The translations under genes and the position numbers were made by a program. A DNA stretch of 64,000 bases from Candidatus Wallbacteria bacterium. Lineage in GTDB: Bacteria > Muiribacteriota > JAQTZZ01. The notes below the pieces were generated by a model that saw nothing but the letters and a program-made list of their open reading frames with translations, was not told the DNA's origin and did not search any database. Below, one piece after another: positions 3,549 through 11,238 of this stretch (position 1 is its first letter; each line of letters begins with the position of its first letter). The DNA lies in contig JAQTZZ010000001.1 of the NCBI GenBank assembly GCA_028687545.1, positions 62,001 through 126,000 on the forward strand, in the 5' to 3' direction.

Positions 3549-3576
3549 GTAGGGATGCAGCATGCTGCATCCCTAC
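3549..3576. repeat. Perfect 28-bp GTAGGG palindrome, likely terminator
   Basis: GTAGGGATGCAGCA and its exact complement form a 28-bp palindrome 22 bases after the porin stop, followed by ATTTTTT. It belongs to the same GTAGGG...CCCTAC family as the palindrome in the RAYT gene (both have GCAGCATGCTGC at the centre) and probably also terminates transcription. Confidence 0.75.
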
Positions 3577-10486: not shown

Positions 10487-10641
10487 GAATGAAATCGTTT
10501 CCAAACGAGATTAATGTCTCTTTTTGATACCAGCATGTTTCATTTTGATAAATAAATTTGACCTGGTTCCAGTTAGAATTGCCAAAACCCTTATAATTGC
10601 GGCATGTTACAATGTGGCATGGAAAATGTTTAAAACCGTTC

Positions 10642-11238
10642 ATGCAATTCAACGGTATTCAACATCACAGACAGTCGATCAGGCTGCGTGATTTTGATTA
10701 TGCATCGTCAGGCGGGTATTTTGTGACAATCTGCACATACAACAGGGAATGGGTGTTTGGAAACGTCAGAGACAGGGAAATTATTTTAAACGAATCCGGG
10801 GAAATTGCACAGGTTTGCCTGAATGAAATTCCATGTCATTTCCGCAATGTCCGAATGGATGCATTTGTTGTAATGCCAGATCATGTCCATATGATTATTA
10901 TCGTTGGTGATGAGGGATCGTTTGAAAATCACGAAATTGGTCGGGATGCAAATATTCGTAGGGGCGCAGCATGCTGCGCCCCTACGAATACGGGTACCCC
11001 TACGAACACGAAACACGATCGATTTTTTTTCGTAAAACCTGGATCATTGTCCGCAATCATTCGATCATACAAATCCGCGGTGACAAAATGCATCAATGAA
11101 ATCCGTAACATACCAGGCCAGCCCGTCTGGCAGAAAAATTATCATGAACGTGTAATCCGTGTCTGCGAATTTGACCGCATCAGGAAATACATCCATGAAA
11201 ATCCAATTCAATTTGCCTACCGCCCTGATTTCCGTTAG
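10642..11238 (+). CDS. REP-associated tyrosine transposase (RAYT)
   Basis: This 198-residue HUH transposase of the IS200/Y1 superfamily belongs to the RAYT branch that nicks and mobilises REP hairpins. Visible motifs are SIRLRDFDYASSGGYFVTIC at the N-terminus, the metal-binding HUH pair H81-V-H83 within MPDHVHMII, and the catalytic Y167 in WQKNYHERVIR, followed by the family ending IRKYIHENPIQF. The ATG at 10642 gives a normal family N-terminus; in-frame starts at 10612 and 10597 exist. A 30-bp palindrome lies inside the gene between the HUH motif and the tyrosine, adding RRGAACCAPT in frame. RAYT genes are usually single copy and domesticated rather than carried in an IS; no terminal repeats surround this one. 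Confidence 0.88.
   Translation: MQFNGIQHHRQSIRLRDFDYASSGGYFVTICTYNREWVFGNVRDREIILNESGEIAQVCLNEIPCHFRNVRMDAFVVMPDHVHMIIIVGDEGSFENHEIGRDANIRRGAACCAPTNTGTPTNTKHDRFFFVKPGSLSAIIRSYKSAVTKCINEIRNIPGQPVWQKNYHERVIRVCEFDRIRKYIHENPIQFAYRPDFR
10957..10986. repeat. 30-bp REP palindrome inside RAYT coding sequence
   Basis: CGTAGGGGCGCAGCA is followed by its exact complement, giving a perfect 30-bp palindrome. A partial second unit, GGGTACCCCTACG, follows at about 10992-11004. The length is a multiple of three, so the transposase frame is kept. It shares ends with the elements at 1547-1654 and 3549-3576. Confidence 0.85.

Follow-up and report, generated by a model that had tools for sequence, protein, structure and literature searches.

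The RAYT gene of the window and its internal palindrome

The DNA analysed here, referred to as the window, is a stretch of 64,000 nucleotides from Candidatus Wallbacteria bacterium (GCA_028687545.1, JAQTZZ010000001.1, positions 62,001 to 126,000; genome 4.54 Mb, 108 contigs). It contains a gene whose product is, by profile and predicted fold, a RAYT-type Y1 transposase, with a palindrome inside its reading frame:

10597-11238, + strand: predicted RAYT/TnpAREP ORF, 213 codons, start TTG at 10597, alternative starts ATG 10612 and ATG 10642
10873-10890, + strand: HUH motif MPDHVH, read from the translation
10953-10990, no strand: perfect palindrome of 38 bp, TATTCGTAGGGGCGCAGCA followed by TGCTGCGCCCCTACGAATA, inside the RAYT ORF and in frame
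10958-10985, no strand: core 28-bp double-foot REP (GTAG...CTAC), GTAGGGGCGCAGCATGCTGCGCCCCTAC, of the form GT[AG]G ... C[TC]AC
10991-11010, no strand: partial second REP unit, with the right foot CCCCTACGAACACG at 10997-11010
11188-11190, + strand: codon of the catalytic Tyr198 in YIHENP, read from the translation

The HUH motif and the single catalytic tyrosine followed by NP (MPDHVH, YIHENP) are those of RAYT/TnpAREP proteins. The profile NF047646 (NCBIfam REP_Tyr_transpos) matches the protein with E 6.3e-17 and 61.8 bits, which is below the curated cut-off of 80 and has its best stretch in the N-terminal half only, and PF01797 matches with E 8.6e-07. A search of the sequence directly against solved structures gave no match. 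The AF2 model has the TnpAREP fold and matches the E. coli RAYT-REP complex PDB 4er8 (E 2.4e-06, rmsd 2.9) as well as the TnpA proteins of IS608 and ISDra2, with all of which it has the fold and the HUH and Tyr core in common. To our knowledge, the genes of the E. coli RAYT and of these TnpA proteins carry no internal REP. The REPs of E. coli possess bulged stems (PMC8266576), unlike the perfect stem of the window REP. While the core of the AlphaFold model reaches a pLDDT of about 95-98, residues 91-130 are poorly modelled, and the REP-encoded residues 105-122 (numbering of the modelled chain) have a pLDDT of about 50-60. The REP would be held by a loop between strand beta3, which bears the HUH motif, and helix alphaC, and this loop is exposed and disordered in the model.

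The palindrome had originally been described as a perfect one of 30 bp; it is indeed perfect, but these 30 bp are only the inner part of the 38 bp. Its position was correctly recognized, as it lies in frame within the ORF with the HUH motif on one side and the catalytic tyrosine on the other, and so was the adjoining partial unit, which is seen as a 14-nt direct repeat of the right foot (CCCCTACGAATACG at 10979-10992, repeated as CCCCTACGAACACG at 10997-11010). Between MPDHVH and Tyr198, the palindrome is translated as I-R-R-G-A-A-C-C-A-P-T-N (IRRGAACCAPTN). It is far from a chance arrangement: the RNA fold of the region (-47 kcal/mol for 101 nt, z = -7.9) and its ssDNA fold (z = -5.7) both beat all shuffles.

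In-frame REPs within tnpAREP genes, generally between HuH and Y, were described by Quentin et al. 2018 as a unique and predominant feature of TnpAREP subclass 2.4, which according to these authors is RAYT group 4 of Bertels et al. 2017 (PMC6006769). The REPs of this subclass are of the "double foot" type, their insertion was suggested to have little effect on activity, and the proteins possess the motifs NH[IFV]H, WQ and YIxNNP and a long HuH-Y spacing with a median of 88 (PMC6006769). The window RAYT resembles them in its double-foot GTAG...CTAC REP placed in frame between HuH and Y, in WQ, in the long HuH-Y spacing (100) and in having no C-terminal extension, whereas it has DHVH and YIHENP as slight deviations from the motifs NH[IFV]H and YIxNNP and, unlike in subclass 2.4, no flanking REP was found within 1.5 kb of the gene. 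As in-frame REPs between HuH and Y have already been published for subclass 2.4, the window gene is a further example, and what had been taken as the peculiarity of one gene is the usual state of a RAYT subgroup (PMC6006769). Palindromic elements that are read through in frame in protein genes are also known from the intragenic GTAG/CGTC REPs and the Rickettsia palindromic elements (Di Nocera et al. 2013, PMC3733652), but the hosts of these are unrelated genes, whereas the host in the window is the element's own probable transposase.

REP families and RAYTs of the same genome

Two further places in the window are relevant for the assignment of the palindrome to a REP family:

1548-1653, no strand: REPIN-like inverted pair with GTAG feet outward (units 1548-1572 and 1629-1653), with centres other than those of the window family
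3549-3576, no strand: extragenic member of the window REP family, GTAGGGATGCAGCATGCTGCATCCCTAC, with the same centre and compensated stem changes

The original prediction saw the same ends as those of the palindrome also at 1547-1654 and 3549-3576. They are present at both, but the same centre (GCAGCATGCTGC) is found in 3549-3576 only. The pair at 1548-1653 was considered as a substrate of the window RAYT and rejected, since its centres differ and it belongs to the abundant family of another RAYT, on contig C36 (L002): its units are found in the loop and the flanks of the C36 RAYT and are absent from the window RAYT, and the first unit is identical, letter for letter, to the unit inside the C36 loop. 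For these two units, the refuting case named in the original prediction, a better match to a different RAYT, therefore applies. Between this pair and the next gene, at about 1702-1748, lies a long inverted repeat, CCATATCTGTATAAAAACC...GGTTTTTATACAGATATGG, which may be a terminator or another element.

The pattern GTAGGGGCN{8,18}GCCC gave 48 matches in the genome and 2 for the reversed control. Such pattern searches, on which all genome counts rest, miss degenerate REPs; with this limit, 51 units were tallied by hand, which distribute over the window family (5), the C7 family (2), the C36 families (28), the C26 family (9) and others (7), and 44 of the 51 belong to families that also have a copy in one of the RAYTs of this genome. 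Nine pattern-matched units cluster in and around the C36 RAYT (C36:17120-20877). The window family, with five copies in all that have the same centre, extends to other places in the genome; its members share the foot GTAGGG and the centre CAGCATGCTG and differ, on both sides, in the stem pairs between them.

RAYTs of the window kind occur four times in this genome, and each of the four has REP hairpins in frame in the corresponding position, with differing families and reading phases. The loop REPs are:

window RAYT: GTAGGGGCGCAGCATGCTGCGCCCCTAC
C7 RAYT: GTAGGGAACGGTCGCGACCGTTCCCTAC
C36 RAYT: GTAGGGGCAACGCTTGCCGTTGCCC and the GTGGGGGCACCC... unit
C26 RAYT: two units with the apex CCATGT

REPs with the centres AACGGCCGTT and TTGCATGCAA were also seen (G000:C6:25862-25889, C1:57676-57699, C34:20325-20348); a RAYT carrying a REP with these centres was not found in this genome, while relatives elsewhere (L141, L094) do carry one.

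Occupancy of the loop in related RAYTs

A first survey comprised 88 parsed RAYTs from many phyla, drawn from 80 named loci of genome contigs and, in addition, from phylum searches, and the foot criterion for hairpins was set to admit stems that run past the foot, the window's own hairpin among them. A REP-like hairpin was present between HUH and Y in 67 of the 88, just 5' of the gene in 37 and just 3' of it in 33, and only one had a REP in the conserved N-terminal part. REPs are densest in the loop and in the DNA directly adjoining the gene on its 5' and 3' sides. As the query of this survey contained loops, a second, loop-blind search was made with an N-terminal alignment ending at the HUH strand, which covered the classes of two other named genomes and five named genomes; here, 36 of 55 intact genes had a loop REP (5 loci repeat genes of the first survey). 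Where both flanks were present, the loop was occupied more often than the 5' and the 3' flank, with 56 v 31 v 27 of 75 in the first survey and 34 v 21 v 15 of 51 in the second, and the excess over the 5' flank has p 1e-4 and 0.015, respectively. The comparison of loop-only with flank-only genes is weaker (24 v 10, p 0.024; 17 v 7, p 0.064). Across the two surveys, roughly one quarter to one third of the intact genes have no loop REP. In seven RAYT ORFs with a short spacing (57 residues), no loop hairpin was strong, the best one scoring 7 against a threshold of 8, and broken RAYT copies, a small set with several members cut by contig ends, showed no REP in the conserved N-terminal part. Short tandem repeats (PIAPIPTTSA, GAHGDV, GVDRA) make up the loops of L204, L241 and L257, so that repeat expansion is another way for the loop to grow.

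A REP in the loop is usually of the gene's own type and resembles the flanking REPs. In the first survey, about 38 of 58 comparisons of a loop REP with the gene's own flank REP reached at least 20 of 26 nt, against about 7% of random pairs, and the similarity of REP centres tracks that of the RAYT cores (Mantel r 0.32, p ≤ 2e-4, n=67). Together with the five-member family in the genome, this bears out the proposal that a copy of the probable cognate REP lies within the transposase gene. It also disfavours the quite improbable view that loop REPs are a pure by-product of REPs that land anywhere and are merely tolerated here, with no targeting to the RAYT gene. REPs are known in many unrelated genes of other bacteria (PMC3733652), and the disorder of the modelled loop would fit such tolerance, but convincing copies in other coding sequences of this genome are few, so that intragenic REPs are almost confined to RAYT loops, and 5 of the 51 units lie inside RAYT genes where 0.03 are expected by length.

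Conservation of the DNA and turnover of the loop REPs

It is the DNA of the loop REP that is conserved, and not the encoded peptide. Among 59 double-foot loop units, 41 are read in phase 0, 18 in phase 1 and none in phase 2, in which GTAG gives a TAG stop. One and the same 28-mer has phase 1 in the window (RRGAACCAPT) and phase 0 in L052 and L126 (VGAQHAAPL), which indicates separate insertions. In pairs of loop REPs with the same apex, 35 stem positions have changed, and at 32 of them the opposite side has changed as well and the pairing is kept, although these pairs share sequences and the changes are thus not independent events. That the protein needs the REP-encoded peptide itself is therefore very hard to believe: the insert is always in frame, which speaks for such a need, but two phases and unrelated peptides (RRGAACCAPT, VGAQHAAPL, VGNGRDRSLR, VGAGLKPAPT) serve equally, model confidence in the loop is low, and intact genes without a loop REP exist.

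Loop REPs have been gained, multiplied and lost repeatedly. On a core tree of relatives with the same loop, which is poorly resolved, parsimony gives at least 16 changes for presence and 15 for phase, i.e. about 15-16 each. L032 (G013:C56) differs from the otherwise identical L033 (G025:C177) by 36 bp, most of the loop REP, that are gone in frame; one source assembly of this pair has 9% contamination. L032 was considered as an empty site and rejected, since the right foot is still present, which points to a deletion. Similarly, L034 contains a loop array of four units, and the near-identical L028 has a remnant at the same place. A recent relative of the window gene with an empty site was not found. 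Upstream of the RAYT start in L028 (G022:C1), a complete REP apparently lies inside the centre of a REP of the same family, CCCGTAGGAAACGGTCGCG-TA-[GTAGGGAACGGTCGCGACCGTTCCCTAC]-GCGACCGTTCC.

Origin and possible function of the in-gene REP

We think that the window palindrome is probably the cognate REP of a subclass 2.4-type (group 4) RAYT, located in frame in an exposed loop, and that it is RAYT-made, gene-linked, tolerated at this place and recurrently turned over. Other TnpAREPs cleave ssDNA 5' and 3' of the REP, with GTAG guiding the choice of the site and with loop recognition in group 3 (PMC8266576). The RAYT's own cutting and rejoining of ssDNA would most likely put REPs mainly at or near its own gene, and the RAYT itself presumably makes the insertions. 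Within the gene, only the loop between HUH and Tyr would tolerate them, because any in-frame, stop-free peptide should fit there, and copies in this loop would come, multiply and go again. With a copy of the enzyme's own substrate placed inside its gene, repeat and enzyme remain tied to each other, and we infer that it is this linkage, and not regulation, that explains the frequent occupancy of the loop.

The loop is occupied above the flanks even though fewer insertions would be expected at a site within coding DNA, which suggests specific targeting or selection beyond tolerance. This excess is the one observation that self-placement and tolerance leave unexplained without targeting, selection, a slower decay in coding DNA or a loss of the flanks in horizontal transfer. 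It is conceivable, if doubtful, that the loop is a preferred and selected home for the cognate REP, i.e. a built-in substrate copy that would keep enzyme and repeat together through horizontal transfer or would limit the enzyme. An in-gene REP, unlike flanking REPs, cannot be left behind in transfer, and a selected home of this kind would account for the higher occupancy of the loop across RAYTs from many phyla.

The original prediction proposed self-limiting nicking or translational control. An autoregulation under selection, in which the hairpin limits the RAYT either as part of the gene, where the enzyme would cut it as ssDNA at the replication fork, or as part of the mRNA, through slower translation or RNase III, is unlikely in our view. 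The stability of the hairpin, the fuller loop in both surveys and the compensated stem changes are consistent with it, but the many intact genes without a loop REP are not, flanking REPs are equally well paired (mean stem score 11.9 v 11.9), compensated stems are seen in REPs everywhere, as expected of newly copied elements, and the hairpin lies far downstream of the start codon. Nothing in the analysis favours either nicking or translational control over a tolerated, gene-linked REP copy.

As far as the compared papers show, the excess of the loop over the flanks, the own-family match, the phase switches with recurrent gains and losses, and the filled/deleted pair are new. The in-gene copy bears both on the spread of REPs and on the tie of a RAYT to its own REP family, and it allows RAYT and REP to be paired with no sequence beyond the gene, which extends to draft metagenome assemblies. 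With the filled L033 and the partly emptied L032, the question why the REP lies inside the gene becomes testable.
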